NCBI GenBank assembly: GCA_015228935.1
Contig: JADGCO010000021.1
Span: 1 to 51,496, forward strand
Length of the DNA: 51,496 nt
Origin: Magnetococcales bacterium
Lineage (GTDB): Bacteria; Pseudomonadota; Magnetococcia; Magnetococcales; DC0425bin3
Reading direction: 5' to 3'
A program made the translations under genes and the position numbers. The notes under the pieces were generated by a model. That model saw only the letters and a program-made list of their open reading frames with translations. It made no database searches and had not been told where the DNA came from. Positions 1,321-24,985 of this stretch are shown one piece after another; position 1 is the stretch's first letter, and each line of letters begins with the position of its first letter.

Positions 1321-1478
1321 GGATCGAAAGAACGAGTAAATTCAGAATTATTGACCGGGATCAAAGCACAAGCATCTCCGTCTTTTTCGAAGAAACTCGC
1401 GAAGTATATCGGCTAAATTTAATATTATTACGTAATCACAATGCGTCCTTACCTATAGTATGATTCTTTCGGAGAATT

Positions 1479-4469
1479 CTAAAATGGCCTACCACCCTGA
1501 CCGCCAACATGGATGAAGGAAGAGTCGAAATCTCTAAAATAGCGCCGAAAACGTTCCCCCTCAGGAATTTTTTGACCAGATATTCCCTGAATCTCCTGTA
1601 CAACATTTCGCGGTGTGTATTTACAGTTTGCGTGAGAAGGTGGAATATATAATTTCTGACTGGCAGTGACATACCATTCATTGGCTGCAAACGGATAAGC
1701 ATAATACGGGTAAGCAGGACCATCTATTAAAACAACTTTATATATTTCTTCTTTATTCCAACAATGATGAACGATACGATGGTTACCATCACAAACCAAA
1801 AATTCATTATTAACAGAATTTTCTTTATTTACTTCTCGAGTCTGGGTGCTTTCAATGACGGGTGGTAATACAGATAATAATTTCACGGAATTGACCATTT
1901 CTACGATCAGATACCCTTCCAAATTCTTAATGTCAAAACCAAGCGCATCCAGTTCGCTAGACAGCCTCTCAACCCGTTTTAAACCATCAATGAGAACATA
2001 ACGCTGAATCGGTCGTAATAAACCAAGTTTATTCTTTAGTTCCTTATCACTGAATACAACAATATTGTCTTTTTCTCGTTTAAGATAAGCATGGCTAATA
2101 CTACTGCCTAAGTATGGCTGCGAACCGTTTAAATCCATTTTTTTATTTAATTTCACTAACTCCAAACCTTTACTAAGATTTTGCGGATAACAGTTAATTT
2201 TTTCCTTTACCTCATCGCTAACATCTGGACAATTTTTATCAAATGTCATATTAGCAACCACTCGTTTAACGAGTTTTCCTTCATTGTTCAGGTTAAGCTC
2301 ACCAAGACATACCGTATTATGATAATAATCCCGATCTCCAATTCGAATATTTTCTGGTCCACGCATGTTATTCAAGCACGTTTCAACCCAACACATGACA
2401 TCAGCATTTCGTGCCACGATTGCAGGACAATTCCGCCACTCGTTCAGTGGAAACCAGACAATACCCCGATGTAGTGTAGGTTTGCCACGGCTTATTTCTC
2501 CTTCCCAGCGAAGCGCTCCTTTATTTAATGTTGACACATCTACGGTATGAATTCTATTCAGAATCTTGAAAAAACTTCGCTTATCCCCATCGCGATGGTC
2601 TGCTGCAAAATAGTCCAGGGTAGTGAGGGTATATTCGTACTTTCTAGGAATGCCATCCGTAGGGCTGAACCTTACAAAAGATTCATTTGCCACAAAACGC
2701 CGTTGCTTTGCAATATCCAAAATAGCATCCGAATTCAATTCCTTGAGCTTATTATCCAGTTCTTTCATAAGCTTTTCTTCATCTACATACAGGTATGGAT
2801 TAACATTACTCCTTGGATCGGTGGCTGCAATCATGTCCATCTTGATGCGATAGAGAAACTCCCGTATTTCGTGCGCCTTAAAGGCTGGCATTAATAAAGT
2901 ATCCCATGCACTAAAATCAGACATGCGAAGTGGGAAATGGTTATTAAGAAGAATGTCGTATCTGTTATTGCTTCTAACGTATCTTACCAGGAGAAGTAGA
3001 GAATAACTACTTGTTGGTCCTGGATGCGACTCAGGTAAAAGAGGAAAATTAATAGGTGCCTGTTCTTTGGAAAATAATTGCCCCAAACAATTATCTTGTT
3101 TGGAATTACTCCAAAACGCTTCAGGCAATGAACAACACTGCACGTATCCAAATTGTTTCCATACACTTTCTGACAAATTTTTGAACTTATTTACTGCGCT
3201 TTTGTCTCGCGATGTTTCCACCTTAGCCAATAAATCGACTGGTCTCCCACTTGGCAAATTTTCCCCGTCCAACCATGCATGGATTTCACGATACAAACGC
3301 ATTTCTCCTGGAGAAATGCGCGATGCAGAAACCATGGGAATGCTTTTTGGTCTGTCAGCTTTAGATGATTTCTTGAGAAATTCAATCCGCATCCCACCCG
3401 CCAAGAGATCAAGTTGAAGCAGTACACCGTTATTATCATTTTCTTTGGACGGGGGGCAAGAAATTATTTGGAGCATGTTACGCCGACTGCCAAGCATATC
3501 AAACGGATGGTAAGAGACATTCTGTAACGCATTCAGGTGACGATGCCCATGTAGGACCAAAGAGACCTGATAATCTTGAAGTTGCTCAATAACCCACTGT
3601 GTATCAACTAGAAATGTTAACTCTTTTTTATCGTAAGTTCGCTGAAAATTGGCGCTGGCATCAACCGGGAGCAAATGATAATGAAAAACTGTAATAATGT
3701 AGAGCGGTCGATCAGTAATAACTTCTGTTAACCACTTAAGCATATTTTTCGCCATCTCGATTTGACTTCTATTAACCCAACCAACGCTGGGTGAATCAGG
3801 TTCTTCACCTTGATTGTACTCAAAATGATTCGAGTCAAAACCAACGATAGCAACTACACCATTCATACGGCTGGTTAATGTCAATGATGGACAATTTACC
3901 ATTTTATACTTTTCATCTTCCATTAGATCAACTTTTAAAAAACGACTGGCAAATCGATTAATGTAACAACTAATCCGTGGCGGTATCATTTTACCGCTTG
4001 ATATCATGCTAGATTCTCGAAAACGTAATAAATCGTGATTTCCTGGCACAACCAGTACAGATTTCCTGATTCCATCCAAATTCTTAGCTACGTTATCAAT
4101 AAGTTTCTCAATAAATGCAACACATTTCCCAAATGAATCATGATATTTATTTTCAACCATCATATTTAAGTCTATTTTTTCAGTCCTCTTTTTCATCTCT
4201 ATCTTGGAGGATTCAATAAGTGATTTCCCGTACAGAAAATCTCCGCTGAACACGACCTGATCTAGTTTTCCCCATTTAAGCTCTTTGACTTTTTGATTAA
4301 CGCTTTCCGAAAGCTCTTTAAGAACTGCTTCTTGCTCAATAATCGTCGGATCAAGGTGCAAATCGCTTAACTGCAAAATATTAATCTTATTTTCATTGGT
4401 GTCAGCTTCGCAATCAATTTGAAGTTTTATAAGATTCTTAACTGTAACTGAATCATCATAAATAAACAT
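1479..4469 (-). CDS. Calcineurin-like phosphoesterase with C-terminal ParB/Srx-like domain
   Basis: The protein has 996 residues. Residues 30-315 hold a full metallophosphoesterase motif set: D36xH38, GD (76-77), GNHD (143-146), HYH (263-265) and HGHRH (307-311), so two-metal phosphoesterase or phosphodiesterase activity is expected. Residues 370-800 match nothing I recognise. Residues about 818-985 align with the small protein encoded next door (4505-5149): a YVL start, xFDIxNLEG, D-G-N-H-R at 894-898, YPYYAY at 920-925 and FRDF at 978-981. The DGxHR element resembles the nucleotide-binding motif of ParB/sulfiredoxin-fold proteins such as SerK. Start ATG 4469 has GGAG seven bases upstream. 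It is the last gene of a minus-strand set after the TS-like and small ParB-like genes. Base composition is far more AT-rich than the flanks, which suggests transfer. Exact substrate unknown. Confidence 0.8.
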   Translation of the reverse strand: MFIYDDSVTVKNLIKLQIDCEADTNENKINILQLSDLHLDPTIIEQEAVLKELSESVNQKVKELKWGKLDQVVFSGDFLYGKSLIESSKIEMKKRTEKIDLNMMVENKYHDSFGKCVAFIEKLIDNVAKNLDGIRKSVLVVPGNHDLLRFRESSMISSGKMIPPRISCYINRFASRFLKVDLMEDEKYKMVNCPSLTLTSRMNGVVAIVGFDSNHFEYNQGEEPDSPSVGWVNRSQIEMAKNMLKWLTEVITDRPLYIITVFHYHLLPVDASANFQRTYDKKELTFLVDTQWVIEQLQDYQVSLVLHGHRHLNALQNVSYHPFDMLGSRRNMLQIISCPPSKENDNNGVLLQLDLLAGGMRIEFLKKSSKADRPKSIPMVSASRISPGEMRLYREIHAWLDGENLPSGRPVDLLAKVETSRDKSAVNKFKNLSESVWKQFGYVQCCSLPEAFWSNSKQDNCLGQLFSKEQAPINFPLLPESHPGPTSSYSLLLLVRYVRSNNRYDILLNNHFPLRMSDFSAWDTLLMPAFKAHEIREFLYRIKMDMIAATDPRSNVNPYLYVDEEKLMKELDNKLKELNSDAILDIAKQRRFVANESFVRFSPTDGIPRKYEYTLTTLDYFAADHRDGDKRSFFKILNRIHTVDVSTLNKGALRWEGEISRGKPTLHRGIVWFPLNEWRNCPAIVARNADVMCWVETCLNNMRGPENIRIGDRDYYHNTVCLGELNLNNEGKLVKRVVANMTFDKNCPDVSDEVKEKINCYPQNLSKGLELVKLNKKMDLNGSQPYLGSSISHAYLKREKDNIVVFSDKELKNKLGLLRPIQRYVLIDGLKRVERLSSELDALGFDIKNLEGYLIVEMVNSVKLLSVLPPVIESTQTREVNKENSVNNEFLVCDGNHRIVHHCWNKEEIYKVVLIDGPAYPYYAYPFAANEWYVTASQKLYIPPSHANCKYTPRNVVQEIQGISGQKIPEGERFRRYFRDFDSSFIHVGGQGGRPF

Positions 4470-4504
4470 GGCTTTACTCCAAAATAAAACGACTTGTTAA
4501 AGAA

Positions 4505-5149
4505 TCAGGCTTTCAAAATTATTGGATTTGTTTGCTTACGCTGTTTTTGAATTCCATCAAAAATCGCGTTAAAATCCCGAAATAATGCTTTGTACTGTTT
4601 TGGGTCCCGATATTCTTTTTTTACAAAGCCTTCAGGAAGTTCGTTAAGTTCCAAAACCTCATCCCATCCCTTTTCTAAAGCATAGGCATAGTAAGGATAA
4701 TCCAATGGAACGTCATGGGCTAGCACTACATTTATTCTCTTGCGTAAACGCATAGCGACATAAATCCTGTGCATGCCGTCGTTAATTAAAGGAATAGTTC
4801 GCCCATCAGGCTCATGAGACATTTCTACCATTGGCGGAGTCAAGGGTATAGGCCCATCTTCACAATTGTGTATTTCTGGATTTTTCATCCAGAAAAAAAG
4901 CCCACCCTCAAGATTAAAAATATCTACACCTTGTGCCATAAAACCATTATGAAGTGCGTGCAATCGCTCGAAATCTTCCCGCAGCACATACTTTTGAGCA
5001 GGAAAAAGATTCCTCGGATCTATTTGACGCACCAATTCGAGACGAGCATGCTCATAAATAAGAGGTTGACCATAACCACACAACCGAGTTTTTGCAAATC
5101 TCTTCAGTAAATCAGCTTCGTTGATATGTTCTATACGGGTAATAACCAT
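4505..5149 (-). CDS. Small ParB/Srx-like DGMHR protein
   Basis: This protein of about 214 residues is a stand-alone version of the C-terminal domain of the neighbouring 996-residue phosphoesterase. Shared landmarks in order are a QKYVL segment, VDIFNLEGG, a NDGMHR motif, PYYAY and FRDF near the C-terminus. DGMHR corresponds to the DGxHR nucleotide-binding motif of ParB/sulfiredoxin-fold enzymes, so an ATP- or CTP-using activity is possible; this is inferred from the motif only. The start is chosen at 5149 because GGAG at 5156-5159 lies six bases upstream; ATG 5152 and TTG 5161 are in-frame alternatives. It ends 35 bp before the phosphoesterase start and probably shares its transcript. Confidence 0.75.
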   Translation of the reverse strand: MVITRIEHINEADLLKRFAKTRLCGYGQPLIYEHARLELVRQIDPRNLFPAQKYVLREDFERLHALHNGFMAQGVDIFNLEGGLFFWMKNPEIHNCEDGPIPLTPPMVEMSHEPDGRTIPLINDGMHRIYVAMRLRKRINVVLAHDVPLDYPYYAYALEKGWDEVLELNELPEGFVKKEYRDPKQYKALFRDFNAIFDGIQKQRKQTNPIILKA

Positions 5150-5488
5150 CATATTCTCCAATCTGTCTGCGAGAAAACAAACTCAACAAACAATTTTATA
5201 CACAAGCACATATCAGGCAATGCTAGAAAGAACTGGATAGCCCAAAAATTGACTAGATATATTAACTATAACAACAAACATGATAGTATGCTTCTCATTT
5301 CGTTTCAAATAGATATGGAAAAATCATCATTAAAGTTTATGCGCTAATTTTAAATTGTTTAGAAAAAGCCGTTAATTTCTTCTTCTATTCATGTTAATTG
5401 ACAAACCAGCAATCTTAATTACACGTTTGTCTGGTCAAAATTCTAGTCCGAAAACCAGGCAAAGCCAATATCAAAAAAGTTCCTCTTC
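5150..5488. other. AT-rich intergenic region before the small ParB-like gene
   Basis: No convincing gene on either strand. It contains the GGAG ribosome-binding site of the small ParB-like gene at its left end and, just downstream of the TS-like gene, an imperfect hairpin (5426-5463). The rest is AT-rich and may hold a separate promoter for the two downstream minus-strand genes, but I cannot name a clear one. Confidence 0.5.
5426..5463 (-). terminator. Possible hairpin terminator of the TS-like gene
   Basis: TTTGTCTGGT (5426-5435) and ACCAGGCAAA (5454-5463) pair over ten bases with one G-T, around an 18-base loop, 26 bp past the stop at 5489. No long T-run follows, so it is only a weak candidate. 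Confidence 0.3.
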
Positions 5489-7000
5489 TTACCCTTTCCG
5501 ACGACGCAAATCCTTATTCAAACGCGCCTCGGCTTGAGCTAATTCTCGACCCAAATAAAGAGCATGGTCAATGCGGGAAATAGCAACATCTGTTACCAAC
5601 TGCCGTTCAAGTTCCTCAGCGCTAGTGCCGGTATAGGTATGCAGACGCATACCCTCGTATTGGTGTTCCACAATGATTTGCTCTGCTTTAGTGTCCACCG
5701 AGATAAAAAAATCTCCGTGAGGATCTCGAATAATATTTGTTACTTCCGACGCTCCTCCTGCTTCCGATGATTGATAAGCACTTACTACTTTGGCCCGTTC
5801 CAGTCCGCCTCCTTGGGGGTTAACACTGATAGAGTGACTGATAACCGTAAGTGGTCCAGGTTTCATCCCCACACCTTCGGTGACAAAACGCTGGACCGCA
5901 ATGAGACCATAAATATTTTTCAGCCAACCGTCCAGAGCATTGTGGGTGCGAAAAATAGCGGTCAAAGTCAACCGCTGCTCAAAGCAACGAAAATAAAGAG
6001 AAACAAGACAAGGATGTCCCTTGGAGTCGGAAAGCACATCCCGTCCAGTATCCCAGAGGGCTACATATGCATGCCGAGACTCTGGATCAGATCTAAGCTT
6101 ATTCACTGTCCAAGACAACGTATCAGAAGAATACCCGTTCGTTGCGTTCCCGAAGTAAGTGCGTAACCGGTGACCATAGCCATAATACTGATCTTGAGGT
6201 AGTTCAGGGGAGAGGATGGAACTCTGATAGCGGGTGAATTCCTCTGGAGTAAAACCATATTTTAACAAGACCTCCGGCTCCTCTTCATGAGGTTGTTTAA
6301 TTACTACCTTCATATTAAGCAGCTCAATGCGATCCCCTTTATTTATTCTTCGATTGCGGTAACCGAATCGGTAGAGATGGTAAATCAAGGCTTTCCACGC
6401 TTGTATGGGAGTTTCCGCTACAATGTTGTGACCTTGAGGATCGGAGGGAAAACGAGGCACTTCGGAAATTGACATACTGGGGATCAGCACGTTACGGCGA
6501 TCTGGCCTGTTTCCCTTTTCCGGTGGAGACAGATTGGCAAAATAGCTCACCAATCCAGCTTTAGCGTTTGGCGCACCTGGTTCACCCAAATCGGTAATCA
6601 TCAGTCGTCCACCAAAGTCCTCCGGAACAACACCTCCGTCTAGTTTCTGGTTGGTACCAACAATCTGGTGGACGGACACTCCCAGTAACTCAGTAATCTC
6701 CAGACCATGTTGGAAAAAACCTGTCAGTGCAGGGCGGGAGGATCCCAAGTCAACTCCAAACAACACCAAGTAACAAATTTGCGGATTATAGAGCAAATTG
6801 CGTAACAGTTCAGGCAAACCATTACCGTACAGAGTGCCAAAAGCAGCGACGCGGGACGTAGATCGATCAAGATTAACGCCTGCATTTTCAAAATGTTTCC
6901 TGACTACAGACAAAGGAGACCACAAGGTGACCACACCCACATCCCCTTGACGGTTAACGACGTCAAGTTTATTCTCAAAATAAAGAGGAATAAAATCCAT
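5489..7000 (-). CDS. DUF4346/MtrA-like + thymidylate-synthase-like fusion protein
   Basis: The protein has 503 residues and two parts. Residues about 20-180 resemble the MtrA-like/DUF4346 domain (AAFGTLYGNGLPELLRNLL, then NPQICYLVLFGVDLG). Residues about 240-480 resemble thymidylate synthase: YGYGHRLRTYFG (273-284), SRHAYVALWD (308-317), HPC with C331 as nucleophile candidate, LYFR (335-338), then R351-D357 and KNIYGL (361-366) in the order of the enzyme's dUMP-binding segments, and a PGPLTVISHSISV strand. Related enzymes methylate or hydroxymethylate dUMP or dCMP with folate-type C1 donors. The N-terminal domain suggests a link to archaeal-type or modified-nucleotide enzymes rather than the cell's ordinary ThyA. 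Start ATG 7000 has AAGGTGG seven bases upstream. It heads a minus-strand set with two ParB-like proteins in an AT-rich island. Confidence 0.8.
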   Translation of the reverse strand: MDFIPLYFENKLDVVNRQGDVGVVTLWSPLSVVRKHFENAGVNLDRSTSRVAAFGTLYGNGLPELLRNLLYNPQICYLVLFGVDLGSSRPALTGFFQHGLEITELLGVSVHQIVGTNQKLDGGVVPEDFGGRLMITDLGEPGAPNAKAGLVSYFANLSPPEKGNRPDRRNVLIPSMSISEVPRFPSDPQGHNIVAETPIQAWKALIYHLYRFGYRNRRINKGDRIELLNMKVVIKQPHEEEPEVLLKYGFTPEEFTRYQSSILSPELPQDQYYGYGHRLRTYFGNATNGYSSDTLSWTVNKLRSDPESRHAYVALWDTGRDVLSDSKGHPCLVSLYFRCFEQRLTLTAIFRTHNALDGWLKNIYGLIAVQRFVTEGVGMKPGPLTVISHSISVNPQGGGLERAKVVSAYQSSEAGGASEVTNIIRDPHGDFFISVDTKAEQIIVEHQYEGMRLHTYTGTSAEELERQLVTDVAISRIDHALYLGRELAQAEARLNKDLRRRKG

Positions 7001-7098
7001 TATTTACCACCTTACAAACAACCACATGCGATCATGAACAACTGGCTGTCCGATTTGCTTTGTATTCAATGGTACTCTCCAGATTTCATCTTTGAGTG

Positions 7099-7212
7099 AT
7101 GAGTCCCCTGCAAAAAACCAAACCAGCCATTTCCACAAAACACGAGCCTCTTGAAATCAAGCCATTGCCAACCCGATTTTGACCCATCTTCAACTTTTTG
7201 CAAGGGACTCAT
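7099..7212. mobile_element. MITE-like element with 18-bp inverted ends
   Basis: ATGAGTCCCCTGCAAAAA (7099-7116) and TTTTTGCAAGGGACTCAT (7195-7212) are inverted copies with one mismatch, enclosing 78 bp without coding potential. The GAGTCCC...TTGCAAAAA type of end looks like an insertion-sequence terminus, so this may be a miniature or internally deleted element. The outer AT/AT pair could be a 2-bp target duplication. No transposase is present in the window. Confidence 0.5.
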
Positions 7213-7888
7213 AGACACGTCTTTGGAGGATCAGGAGATCCAAACATTACCCGCGTCACAATGCTAAATCCTTGTTCCGCATCGACAACAAACATAAGAA
7301 TCTTCTTTATTTTACAACAACATAATGCGGTGTATCTTCTCCGCAAGTATAACACCCCATCCAAAAAATGGGAGTATGTTGACTTATGGAACTATGTTTT
7401 TCTCTCCAATACTGCTCTTCTTGATCCCTTTTTATTTCTTCATCTCTATTCACTTCAATCTCCTCTCAATTAATAACATCACAACATACCCCAAGAAGAT
7501 TCATTCCCTCATCGTTCATGGACCGACTGAATCGCAGGGAACTCGATTTTATCGCCAACCAGTCTCTAGAAATGGTAATCCAGAAAGCATTGAATAGCAA
7601 GCATTTTATGTTACAATTTTTTATTACATTATAATCATTTAATATCATTTAACTGGCACGTCAATATTGGAAACCAAGGCTAGGCAATAAAAATGGCTCC
7701 TCCGCAACATACGATGTTAAAATCAGATGAATTATCAATATGTTATTTCTGGGTTGCGATCGCAAAATAAACAATATTTGACGGCGTAACATACATTAAT
7801 TATATTTAATAATGAAAATAAATACCATTAATTAGACGTTTTTATGTAAGAATATATTTTATCGTCATAGGCAATCCTGCTTGGTGGA

Positions 7889-7914
7889 CCAACCCTGCTG
7901 ATTTGACATGCTGA
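7889..7914. repeat. Short repeat shared with 23011-23036
   Basis: CCAACC-TGCTGATTTG-CATGC-GA recurs at 23011-23036 with three substitutions over 26 bases. Both copies lie at an edge of an AT-rich patch. Too short to classify. Confidence 0.4.
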
Positions 7915-8066
7915 AATTTTCGGTGGTGTCCATTAGTGACCTGACCGATGGCTTTGAAAGATTTTGAAAAACAACATGGTAGAACAAAACTGGGTATTCC
8001 TCCCTGGCCCGGAAAGATACCAACCTCATGTTTCTTTCTGATGGCACATGCTCTATCATTTCCGTT

Positions 8067-8198
8067 ATGATCATCGTGATTGATACAAGCGTCTTTGTCT
8101 GGGCACTGCTGAGCGCAGATGGTGCCAACCGGGAGGTGTGTCGAAGATGCCTCTTGGGCCAGTTCCAGCCAGCAGAATTGATTCAAAGGAGTTCATGA
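8067..8198 (+). pseudogene. PIN-domain toxin with internal deletion
   Basis: From ATG 8067 the frame reads MIIVIDTSVFVWALLS, then GANREV and CLLGQFQP. This is the N-terminus of the COG1569-type PIN toxins, including the first catalytic aspartate (D6) and the S/N-G-A-N-R-E element. After residue 35 it runs straight into AELIQRSS and a stop, which looks like the natural C-terminal tail. About 95-100 core residues, carrying the remaining acidic catalytic residues, are missing. The ORF stays open, so an in-frame deletion is likelier than a frameshift. Its TGA overlaps the ATGA in front of the antitoxin gene, as expected for an intact toxin-antitoxin operon. No RNase activity is expected. Confidence 0.7.
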
Positions 8199-13033: not shown

Positions 13034-14016
13034 GTGAACACCCTGATGCCTCGGCCATTGACCTCAGCCTGATCATTCCGGTTTATAACGAAGAAGAAAA
13101 TGTTGGCAAACTGGCCGAGGAAATTCTCGCGGTTGCCAGAGATATTGGCAGATCCTTTGAAATCATCTTTATCGATGACGGCTCAAGCGATGGTACCGTC
13201 CAGAATCTTCTCCGTCTTGAAGAGTCGATCCCGGAGCTGAAACTGATCCGCCTGGCCAGAAACTACGGCCAATCCACGGCCTTGCAGGCCGGATTTGACC
13301 ACGCCCAGGGTGACATCATCGTCACCATGGATGGTGATTTGCAAAATGACCCACGAGATATTCCCATTTTATTGAATCATCTTGAATCCGAAAATGTCGA
13401 TGTAGTCTCCGGCTGGAGAAAAGTGCGCAAGGATCCCCTCCTGGGGGTCTTTTTTTCCCAGGTTGCCAATCGCATCATCTCCAAAAAGACCGGCATCCAT
13501 TTGAACGATTATGGCTGCTCCCTCAAGGTCTATCGCCATGAAGTGCTGTCCCGCTTGCGGGTGTATGGCGAGTTGCACCGTTTCCTGCCCGCCCTGCTCA
13601 GTGCGGTCGGCGCGGAAATTCGTGAACTCCCGGTCAATCACCGTCCCAGGATTCATGGCAAATCCAAATACAGTCTGGACAAAATATTCCGGGTTGTGCT
13701 TGATCTTCTGCTGATCAATTTTTTGCGTAAATATATACAAAGACCCATCCAGTTTTTTGGCCGGATCGGCTTTTATATCGGTGGGACCGGTTTCCTGATC
13801 TCTTCATACCTGGTCATTCTCAAACTCGTCTTCGGGCAGAACATTGGCGAACGCCCTCTGCTTCTCCTGGGAGTCATCATGGTTCTCATGGGAATCATGC
13901 TCATTGCCCATGGATTATTGGGAGAGCTTATTATTCGCATCATGCATGAAAAAGAAGGTATTTCACAGTATGAATTGAAATCCACCAAAAAATTCAGAAA
14001 AAGAAAATTGCAATAG
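13030..14016 (+). CDS. Polyprenyl-phosphate glycosyltransferase, GT2 (GtrB/ArnC-like)
   Basis: A 328-residue GT2 enzyme. It has LSLIIPVYNEEENV at the N-terminus, IFIDDGSSDGT, ARNYGQSTALQAG, and the metal-binding VTMDGDLQNDP with its DGD triad. HRPRIHGKSKYSLDKI precedes two C-terminal transmembrane helices. These features define the DPM1/GtrB/ArnC group, which moves a sugar from a nucleotide donor to undecaprenyl phosphate on the inner face of the membrane. Its lipid-linked sugar would feed the GT-C-like proteins of the same locus (10228-12129 and 16577-18139). Start ATG 13030 is supported by GGAG (13019-13022) at a seven-base spacing; GTG 13024 is in frame but too close to it. Confidence 0.88.
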   Translation: MSEHPDASAIDLSLIIPVYNEEENVGKLAEEILAVARDIGRSFEIIFIDDGSSDGTVQNLLRLEESIPELKLIRLARNYGQSTALQAGFDHAQGDIIVTMDGDLQNDPRDIPILLNHLESENVDVVSGWRKVRKDPLLGVFFSQVANRIISKKTGIHLNDYGCSLKVYRHEVLSRLRVYGELHRFLPALLSAVGAEIRELPVNHRPRIHGKSKYSLDKIFRVVLDLLLINFLRKYIQRPIQFFGRIGFYIGGTGFLISSYLVILKLVFGQNIGERPLLLLGVIMVLMGIMLIAHGLLGELIIRIMHEKEGISQYELKSTKKFRKRKLQ

Positions 14017-14023
14017 CGGCACC

Positions 14024-14599
14024 ATGGGCATGATCTCTTCACTGCAAATCCTCGAAACATGGCAGGATTGTGCAACCCTGGCAGCCAAGAGCGCCGCTTT
14101 TTCTGCCCTGAATGTGGCGTTTCGGAATGCCCTGACCTGTACAGGCTCATTGACCCGCCATTTGGAATCGGCCCTGGGAGAGCCGCTCCGGGTACGTCTG
14201 GAACAACAATCACTTCGCCAGGAGTGGCAGGATGACCCGATCCTCTGGAATGGCTCGCACCACCTGCCGACCGGAGAGGAAATTCTGGTCCGCGATGCCT
14301 GGTTGAGCATCAGGCAACAAGATGTGATCTTTGCCCACTCGGAAATGGTGCTGGCTGGCCTCGCCCCGGAACTGCGTACCGCCGTGGATCAGGGTGCCGA
14401 ACCCTTGGGTCTTTTGTTCCAGGGACAGGCAGGAGATGTCAGACGACAACGCCTGGAACTTGCGCGTGCCCTGGTACCGGAATTGGCCCGGCGCACCGGT
14501 CTGCCCGTGGATCAGATCTTTTGGTGCCGACGCTCCCTGTTCATGGCCGGCAATGTATTGCGGGCACGCATTCTGGAGCTGTTCATCAAATGGGAGTGA
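14024..14599 (+). CDS. ubiC: Chorismate lyase-like protein (UbiC family)
   Basis: A 191-residue protein fitting UbiC, which converts chorismate to 4-hydroxybenzoate plus pyruvate, the first step of ubiquinone synthesis. Family signs are TGSLTRHLE near residue 45, ILVRDAWL with the carboxylate-binding arginine, EPLGLLF, and the C-terminal WCRRSLF followed by ILELF with the conserved glutamate. Similarity to E. coli UbiC is modest and spread out. It starts seven bases after the GT2 stop and sits among glycan genes, so in this locus it could make an aromatic group for a glycan or lipid rather than quinone. Confidence 0.7.
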   Translation: MGMISSLQILETWQDCATLAAKSAAFSALNVAFRNALTCTGSLTRHLESALGEPLRVRLEQQSLRQEWQDDPILWNGSHHLPTGEEILVRDAWLSIRQQDVIFAHSEMVLAGLAPELRTAVDQGAEPLGLLFQGQAGDVRRQRLELARALVPELARRTGLPVDQIFWCRRSLFMAGNVLRARILELFIKWE

Positions 14600-22863: not shown

Positions 22864-23010
22864 CTGGTCGGACTTGCCATTCAGCAGGCGTTCACCAGAA
22901 TATTTTTGGTGATTTTTCGATATGATCATTTGTCTATTGCCTTCTTGCTCTCCATTCGCGTATCGTCTTGCGACTTGTGTACCGACTGCTTATGAGTGAG
23001 TGTAGTGGGC

Positions 23011-23036
23011 CCAACCGTGCTGATTTGCCATGCCGA
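23011..23036. repeat. Short repeat shared with 7889-7914
   Basis: Twenty-three of 26 bases match 7889-7914. It sits 27 bp before the first gene of the second AT-rich patch. Function unknown; it may mark a former insertion border. Confidence 0.4.
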
Positions 23037-23062
23037 CATGCCGATTTGACAAGGGGTAGCTT

Positions 23063-23626
23063 GTGGCCATATCTTCACTGAAAGACATTGTTGATCAACA
23101 ACCTGACATTCAACCAACACAACGCTACGTTGGGATTAATTGGAACGCACGTCGGGAAGCATGGATCGAACGGGTCGAGGGGCTTATCAACTCGATCATA
23201 TCTTTTGTTGAACCATTCAAAGGCTCCAAGCTGGATTATGAAAAAGAATATGAGCATCTTGACGAGTACCTTGTCGGCCCTTATAAAGCGCCATCTCTCA
23301 AACTGTTTATTGGTGCGAGTACGATCCTGATCAGACCAAGAGGCACGTTGATCATTGGCGGTATGGGGCGTGTGGACATGGACGGTCCAAAAGGGAGAGT
23401 CATGTTCATTCTGTCTCTCAACAACAAATTCCCATCAATATCTGTCAAAATTTCAGTCGGCGATCCTCCCTATGAAGACTCAGATGAATTACAACAGAGT
23501 GGCAATCTGTTAACCGCCGCCAAGGTGATCAGGGCGAAATGGCATCTTGTATATTCAAAGCATGAAAAAAATATGACTCCTTTTAATGAAAACTCCTTCT
23601 CTCAGGCACTTCAGGCGGTCTTGTGA
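23063..23626 (+). CDS. Hypothetical protein paired with HEPN-like gene
   Basis: A 187-residue soluble protein that I do not recognise. A mostly helical first third (YVGINWNARREAWIERVEGL) is followed by a beta-rich middle (LKLFIGASTILIRPRGTLIIGG, MFILSLNN, ISVKISVGDPPYED). The start is a GTG at 23063 with AGGGG about six bases upstream; no ATG fits. Its stop shares bases with the ATG of the next gene (TGATG), so the two are made together. Base composition is more AT-rich than the chromosome around it. As first gene of a pair with a possible HEPN RNase it could be an antidote or a partner in defence; this is inference from position only. Confidence 0.65.
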   Translation: MAISSLKDIVDQQPDIQPTQRYVGINWNARREAWIERVEGLINSIISFVEPFKGSKLDYEKEYEHLDEYLVGPYKAPSLKLFIGASTILIRPRGTLIIGGMGRVDMDGPKGRVMFILSLNNKFPSISVKISVGDPPYEDSDELQQSGNLLTAAKVIRAKWHLVYSKHEKNMTPFNENSFSQALQAVL

Positions 23627-24246
23627 TGCCGAACAGTCCATACGACAGCAGATACATGCCAGATTTGGATATGATCGAGCAGTTCCATGATGAATGCCGG
23701 AATGGGTTATGGACTAAATACGATAAGATAATTTTTTTCCTGAAAAATGGAGGTGTTGTAACGCATGAAATTGATGCGTATATTAAAAAAGTTCCCGGCT
23801 ATTTAACAATAACGTCTAATGAATTGATCCAATATATTGAGTATGACCGGAACAGAAAAATTATGGAATTGGATCTGTTAACGGTATTTGATTATTTGTC
23901 ATTCGCAGAGGGAAAGATCAGACTTCACATTGTTGAAAGAATGAAAGAAAAAAGAAATACTATCGTAAGCAGTAGCCTACGACAACTGGATCAAACATCT
24001 CCAGAAGGAATTGGCAAAGAGCCTCTTGAAAAGGTTCTGGAAATTTTCAAAAAACACGGTACATCAGTCAAAATTATTGGGGAATTCAAATGGGCCTTGG
24101 CAACCCGTCATTGGCTCGCTCATGGCAGATGGTGGACGCTCAAGTCAGGTGTTCCTCCAAGACCTGATAGTATGAAGATGCGCGTACAAAAAATCCTTGA
24201 GGTTCTGAAAATATTACCATCTGGGAAGATGACGAATTCTCCCTGA
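23626..24246 (+). CDS. HEPN-like protein (possible RNase toxin or defence effector)
   Basis: A 206-residue, largely helical, charged protein. Residues 161-166 read RHWLAH and continue into GRWW, an R-x4-H motif with the AHG context seen in many HEPN-fold RNases (toxins and defence effectors). The rest has no motif I recognise. ATG 23626 overlaps the stop of the preceding gene by one base; GTG 23623 is an alternative. A coupled pair ending in an HEPN-type protein next to a TIR gene in an AT-rich patch fits a small defence or toxin-antitoxin locus. The HEPN call rests on one motif and helical content. Confidence 0.55.
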   Translation: MPNSPYDSRYMPDLDMIEQFHDECRNGLWTKYDKIIFFLKNGGVVTHEIDAYIKKVPGYLTITSNELIQYIEYDRNRKIMELDLLTVFDYLSFAEGKIRLHIVERMKEKRNTIVSSSLRQLDQTSPEGIGKEPLEKVLEIFKKHGTSVKIIGEFKWALATRHWLAHGRWWTLKSGVPPRPDSMKMRVQKILEVLKILPSGKMTNSP

Positions 24247-24331
24247 CTTCGCAAAAAGTTGACACTATCAACCTCAGTCTGTTCAAAAGTCCTAGACGTA
24301 GCCAGAATGAACCGCTGTTACCTCTGCTTTT

Positions 24332-24985
24332 TTAACCGACACGTCCGTCACGACAACGCCCACATTTTCTTTTATTATCAACCGCACCTTCAATAATTCC
24401 CAATCCCTCAACACACCTGTAACAATAATAACTTGGACAATCACTACAATACCAGATATTTTCGTCTGAATATCCCATCCCACACACTGAACAATTGGCA
24501 CGTCTACCACCCTGAAATATTTTTGCATTCTCTATCTTTCTTCTTACCTGCTCTTCCGAATCTATCCCCAACTTGCTAAGAATAATATCTATTAATTCGG
24601 TGAATAAAATATTTCTAGAATCGATATAATTTATAGTATCTGGAAGACCAGGCAAAACAGTGTCATCAATCAATACTGGTAAAACATATCCAGGCCCCTC
24701 AAGGAGTGTTCTGGCATGAATACTTCTTCTTTCATGTTGAGTCCATTTCTTATCTTTATACGACTCAGAAACAAGCATCAAACAATATTTAGAACGATGC
24801 ATATAAATTTCACCTAACTCTTCATATAAATCTTCTCCCCACAATTCTGCCTTATAGAATTCATCGAAAAATACATTAATATTATTATCGTCTAAACGAC
24901 TAGCAATCTTTCTTGCAAAATCCCTTTCATTACCAGAGAATGAAATCGCAATATCAAATCTTATATCTTTAATCTTCTTACCCAT
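24332..24985 (-). CDS. TIR-domain protein with C-terminal eight-cysteine zinc finger
   Basis: The protein has 217 residues. Residues 8-135 form a bacterial TIR domain: FDIAISFSGNERDFARKIAS, VFFDEFYKAELWGEDL, then CLMLVSESYKDKKWTQHERRS, where E85 is the expected NADase glutamate, and VLPVLIDDT. Residues 165-211 carry four CxxC pairs (C165/168, 180/183, 188/191, 208/211), a spacing like cross-brace fingers of the RING, PHD or ZZ type. TIR enzymes of anti-phage systems cleave NAD+ or make cyclic ADP-ribose signals; here the finger could sense a ligand, nucleic acid or protein. It lies downstream of hppA on the same strand but is AT-rich and probably acquired. GGGAA lies eight bases before ATG 24985. 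Confidence 0.85.
   Translation of the reverse strand: MGKKIKDIRFDIAISFSGNERDFARKIASRLDDNNINVFFDEFYKAELWGEDLYEELGEIYMHRSKYCLMLVSESYKDKKWTQHERRSIHARTLLEGPGYVLPVLIDDTVLPGLPDTINYIDSRNILFTELIDIILSKLGIDSEEQVRRKIENAKIFQGGRRANCSVCGMGYSDENIWYCSDCPSYYCYRCVEGLGIIEGAVDNKRKCGRCRDGRVG

Follow-up and report, generated by a model that had tools for sequence, protein, structure and literature searches.

A thymidylate-synthase-like protein (hereafter TS-like) and a small protein of the ParB-CE family (PF24392) probably form the core of an alternative module for dTMP synthesis, which replaces ThyX and the canonical dUTPase in about half of the Magnetococcales and in some Desulfobacterota. Both are encoded in the window (the whole stretch of 51,496 nucleotides that was analysed), next to a gene that codes for a fusion of a phosphoesterase and a second ParB-CE domain (Table 1). 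The TS-like protein would methylate dUMP, with a reduced pterin as the one-carbon donor, to give dTMP, and ParB-CE, whose predicted fold is that of ParB and sulfiredoxin, would most likely hydrolyse dUTP, perhaps also dCTP, and so supply dUMP in the place of dUTPase. Outside the window, a HAD phosphatase and a dCTP deaminase (dCTP to dUTP) encoded in the same operon, or in phage a dCMP-deaminase-like protein, may take part in the same pathway. The role, thymidylate supply, is ordinary; the parts are unusual.

To our knowledge, dTMP synthesis and the removal of dUTP are near-universal. Many prokaryotes have no recognisable dUTPase, and it has been proposed that undescribed proteins fill this gap (PMC5122711); the distribution described below names ParB-CE as one concrete candidate family, and provides 33 genomes for testing. 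The papers searched included none on DUF4346, on ParB-CE or on their pair.

Table 1. Features of the cassette, of the proteins that it encodes and of the surrounding island (positions in the window)
Feature	Position	Strand	Remarks
Metallophosphoesterase–ParB-CE fusion	1479..4469	-	996 aa, accessory gene; ORF list and Pfam
Calcineurin-like phosphoesterase domain of the fusion, residues 30-311	3537..4382	-	metal-site motifs DLH, GDF, GNHD, GHRH
ParB-CE domain of the fusion, residues 816-930	1680..2024	-	CDGNHR motif
Small ParB-CE protein (PF24392)	4505..5161	-	218 aa, INDGMHR motif; candidate dUTPase-like or dUMP-supplying enzyme
TS-like protein	5489..7000	-	503 aa; MtrA-like N-terminal domain, thymidylate-synthase domain, C-terminal PterinBD-DUF4346 domain
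MtrA-like N-terminal domain of TS-like, residues 1-160	6521..7000	-	weak profile match
Thymidylate-synthase domain of TS-like, residues 199-393	5822..6406	-	C331, R351, N362, R309 invariant; N354 replaces ThyA D169
PterinBD-DUF4346 domain of TS-like, residues 426-496	5513..5725	-	Pfam 63.6 bits, cut-off 29.6
AT-rich island around the cassette, foreign with respect to the background	1400..8130		GC profile; TS and ParB genes xenologous in trees

Replacement of ThyX and dUTPase

Among 48 Magnetococcales genomes, 25 encode the TS-like protein, 19 encode ThyX (PF02511) and none encodes both. The four genomes without either reach 76% completeness at most, and each of the 30 genomes that are at least 90% complete holds exactly one of the two. 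Both states are found inside one family (f1) and inside one genus (g7), so the swap took place more than once and does not go back to one ancient event.

Of the 25 TS-like genomes, 24 encode the small ParB-CE protein (the one that lacks it is 57% complete), whereas all 23 others lack it; its gene adjoins that of TS-like in 19 of the 25. On the contrary, the canonical dUTPase is found in 17 of the 19 ThyX genomes and in none of the TS-like genomes, these counts being those of the trimeric enzyme (PF00692) alone. TS-like and ParB-CE occupy the same pathway slot as ThyX and the trimeric dUTPase, but they belong to different protein families and the two sets are never found together: the genomes that are at least 90% complete hold either one or the other, and ThyX almost always comes with dUTPase. 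A ThyX genome that is 97% complete (G004) has neither the canonical dUTPase nor ParB-CE; the lack of dUTPase can therefore have other causes as well. Fisher values calculated from this survey overstate the significance, since the 48 genomes represent one order and are not independent samples.

The same pattern was looked for in an independent set of eight Desulfobacterota and Eremiobacterota genomes that encode the TS-like protein, which were searched for ParB-CE, dUTPase and ThyX. All eight have ParB-CE; neither a dUTPase above the cut-off nor ThyX was detected in any of them.

The TS-like protein

The protein matches the thymidylate synthase family Thymidylat_synt (PF00303) with 29.1 bits (cut-off 24.3). 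The closest known enzymes are of the methanogen type (TIGR03283), whose cut-off of 174.55 bits is not reached (104.1 bits). Like ThyA, the TS-like protein has a Cys nucleophile (C331, aligned with the active-site Cys of ThyA), the Arg that binds phosphate (R351) and the Asn that recognises dUMP (N362), on a TS fold. These three residues and R309 are unchanged in all 37 TS-like homologues that were aligned; the choice of C331 as the candidate nucleophile, made in a reading of this DNA from sequence only, is borne out. N362 is the type of residue that selects dUMP; dCMP hydroxymethylases have an Asp instead. The predicted model is of modest quality (pLDDT 77), and its best matches by structure are TS-fold enzymes, among them an FAD-dependent dCMP hydroxylase. 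Searches of plasmid and phage records returned generic phage TS matches only.

The protein differs from ThyA in that the thymidylate-synthase domain is inserted between the MtrA-like and the DUF4346 domains, and in that the position of E. coli ThyA D169, an Asp which we take to be needed for cofactor handling, is occupied by an Asn in 36 of the 37 proteins and by an Arg in one. The MtrA-like nature of the N-terminus, also suggested by the sequence-only reading, finds weak backing in a profile match that is faint but specific (PDB 8q3v/5laa, E 0.003–0.01). The GHxTGQ segment of MtrA, whose His is presumably the cobalt ligand, is not conserved in this domain across the TS-like family.

The classical ThyA cycle needs DHFR. 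A profile search with PF00186 found no DHFR of this type in any of the 48 Magnetococcales genomes, whether they encode TS-like or ThyX; hence TS-like, in contrast to ThyA, may work differently, or another type of DHFR is present. Alternatives to this DHFR type are listed in PMC1971073. TS-like represents an uncharacterised thymidylate synthase architecture, which may work without the usual DHFR.

Because TS-like and ThyX are mutually exclusive, and the active-site residues agree, we consider TS-like the likely thymidylate synthase of the genomes that encode it. Its reaction, judging from the replacement of ThyX, would be the methylation of dUMP to dTMP.

The small ParB-CE protein

The second protein of the pair scores 101 bits with the Parb-CE profile of Pfam (cut-off 23). 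Its start is listed as TTG; an ATG at position 5149 is a better fit to the family. It had been described from its sequence as Srx/ParB-like, and the predicted fold agrees: an AlphaFold2 model (pLDDT 89) retrieves sulfiredoxin and ParB–CDP among its best PDB matches, with good probability, none of them at E <0.001. ParB-CE thus shares a predicted fold and a GxHR-type motif with the ParB CTPase, with Srx and with 1vk1, a Pyrococcus protein which we assume to be SerK-like; however, it constitutes a separate Pfam family, and, unlike ParB, it is linked to pyrimidine metabolism and not to partitioning. A comparison of the ParB-CE profile with PDB sequences gave nothing meaningful, and plasmid records gave no match. 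In Pfam, the protein does not match the dUTPase family PF00692, so that any dUTPase role would be that of a non-homologous protein.

The neighbours of the gene bear on its function. ParB-CE lies within 1 kb of a weak match to the dUTPase profile in 17 of 24 Magnetococcales genomes; such matches in TS-like genomes are taken as dCTP deaminases, which was verified for one locus (L058) and is visible in the sequence of two others (L095 and L096), and Dcd in ThyX genomes was judged via this weak cross-match only. The operon order in several relatives is TS-like, HAD phosphatase, ParB-CE, then dCTP deaminase. In three of these 17 genomes (G011, G032 and G036) TS-like is on another contig. Viral contigs offer a range of arrangements: HAD, ParB-CE, a dCMP-deaminase-like gene and TS-like are consecutive in L126 (286 kb), ParB-CE and TS-like are 1 kb apart in L130, a deaminase-like gene is 3.4 kb from ParB-CE in L124, and ParB-CE has no evident TS or deaminase nearby in L128 and L131. 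The viral and operon neighbours suggest that ParB-CE follows dUMP-forming steps. HD-domain-like genes, assigned by eye, are also seen near ParB-CE in two Desulfobacterota genomes (L115, 4353-4982; L117, 3010-3582).

In T4-type phages, dUMP supply involves the dCTPase/dUTPase gp56, dCMP deaminase and TS. The operon of L126 has a deaminase and TS-like, and ParB-CE stands where the dCTPase/dUTPase is expected, although it belongs to a different Pfam family from gp56 and its activity is a candidate one.

Based on the phylogenetic profile and on the linkage to dCTP deaminase, we tentatively propose that ParB-CE is a dUTPase-like enzyme, and see this as a serious possibility rather than a probability. 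Somewhat more speculative is the wider idea that in ParB-CE the ParB/sulfiredoxin fold has given rise to a third type of dUTPase, not homologous to the others, which, with the MtrA–TS–DUF4346 enzyme and its non-classical pterin chemistry, would make up a dTMP pathway that is independent of ThyA, ThyX and the known dUTPases, and common to bacteria and large phages.

Other explanations for the role of ParB-CE

The presence and absence data fit ParB-CE as a dUTPase and ParB-CE as a partner of TS-like, and cannot separate the two. As an obligate partner of the thymidylate synthase, ParB-CE would act for example in nucleotide-dependent activation or in redox or pterin recycling, and dUTP would be cleared by another enzyme such as MazG. 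That ParB-CE tracks TS-like so closely inside and outside the order, and so often adjoins it, is consistent with such a role, as is the fact that Srx-fold proteins carry out phosphate transfer. It may also be that a helper is needed, since the lack of a PF00186 DHFR in the order and N354 in the place of ThyA D169 suggest an unusual pterin chemistry. We nevertheless find it unlikely that ParB-CE is merely a partner: it keeps with the dCTP deaminase in the three genomes in which TS-like is on another contig, some viral contigs pair it with a deaminase with no TS-like detected nearby, and the exact loss of dUTPase is left unaccounted for.

The missing dUTPase would also be explained if the dCTP deaminase were bifunctional (dCTP to dUMP), in which case ParB-CE would have another role, for example in dTMP phosphorylation or regulation. 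The dCTP-deaminase-like matches do track the TS-like genomes, and bifunctional Dcd:dut enzymes are known (PMC5519681). However, the deaminase scores 207 bits with the monofunctional enzyme of E. coli, compared to 143 and 59 bits with the bifunctional enzymes of Mtb and M. jannaschii, respectively, and its being closest to the former means that a dUTPase is needed. Moreover, seven of the eight genomes outside the order have ParB-CE but no dCTP-deaminase-like or dUTPase match, in a search that detects dCTP deaminase weakly. We consider a bifunctional deaminase improbable, and favour ParB-CE as the enzyme that would take over from dUTPase.

Origin of the copy in the window

Relatives place the window in a Magnetococcales genome that is 100% complete, in which neither classical ThyA nor ThyX was found; TS-like is the only TS family found there. 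In this, in its replacement of ThyX across the order and in its dUMP-type Asn, it behaves like a housekeeping thymidylate synthase, an outcome that the sequence-only reading had itself named as one that would refute its proposal. This genome has a second TS-like and ParB-CE pair on another contig (C61; L006:11991-13517 and 13525-14178), in DNA of normal GC content (56–58% across both genes), where the phosphoesterase is lacking. The TS-like and ParB-CE copies of the window are 48% and 62% identical, respectively, to those of C61. Phylogenetic trees place the C61 pair with members of the same genus, whereas TS-like and ParB-CE of the window fall in another Magnetococcales clade, where ParB-CE joins the one that adjoins a fusion gene in genome G028 (support 98/60). 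These positions indicate that the island in the window is a second copy, acquired horizontally, to which the fusion is an accessory.

The three minus-strand genes are indeed where the sequence-only reading had placed them, in a dip of the GC profile: 37–47% across about 1.4–8 kb, against a genomic background that is mostly 55–60%. Pfam likewise recovers the domains that it had named in the three proteins, each with a score over the curated cut-off. A search for direct repeats at the borders of the island gave no convincing ends. A concentrative nucleoside transporter gene (Nucleos_tra2, 73-1320) directly adjoins the island and sits in high-GC host DNA; a HicB-like protein (PF05534, 8138-8431) is encoded at its right edge.

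The phosphoesterase–ParB-CE fusion matches Metallophos and Parb-CE (62 bits for the latter, cut-off 23), both above the curated cut-offs, and has only a distant similarity to DS9_1_antiphage (NCBIfam NF053862; 78.7 bits, cut-off 420). It is found in two other Magnetococcales genomes, G028 (L093, 2048-5164) and G037 (L094, 6961-9984), and TS-like is absent beside it in both. The fusion of G028 is accompanied by a small ParB-CE and lies near rpoD/dnaG-like genes; that of G037 has no such companion, and a frame break splits off its phosphoesterase part. No fusion protein was found among the viral contigs, and searches of plasmid and phage records with the fusion returned phosphoesterase matches only.

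The sequence-only reading had seen in the three genes a set that belongs together and processes pyrimidine nucleotides, and in this it is supported. The exact trio was seen in this window only, and on this ground a DNA-modification or defence trio was rejected; the pair of TS-like and ParB-CE recurs widely. A system that would make, activate and trim an unusual nucleotide, whether for the modification of DNA or for defence against phages, could be imagined from the AT-rich foreign island, from the distant similarity of the fusion to DS9_1_antiphage and from the grouping of the window's ParB-CE with the neighbour of the G028 fusion (the fusion and a small ParB-CE may move together as a single module), but it is improbable, since TS-like and ParB-CE are the order's housekeeping set, TS-like replaces ThyX order-wide and carries the dUMP-type Asn instead of the Asp of dCMP hydroxymethylases, the fusions of G028 and G037 have no adjoining TS-like, and PADLOC recognised no system. 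Of the window copy, only the fusion remains a possible defence part.

A second AT-rich patch of the window (22926-24985) contains a TIR-domain gene at 24332-24985 on the minus strand (PF13676, 66 bits; PADLOC PDC-S66, 50.6 bits, ThsB being weaker) and, on the plus strand, an overlapping pair of genes with no assigned function (23063-23626 and 23623-24246). It is possibly a TIR defence locus.
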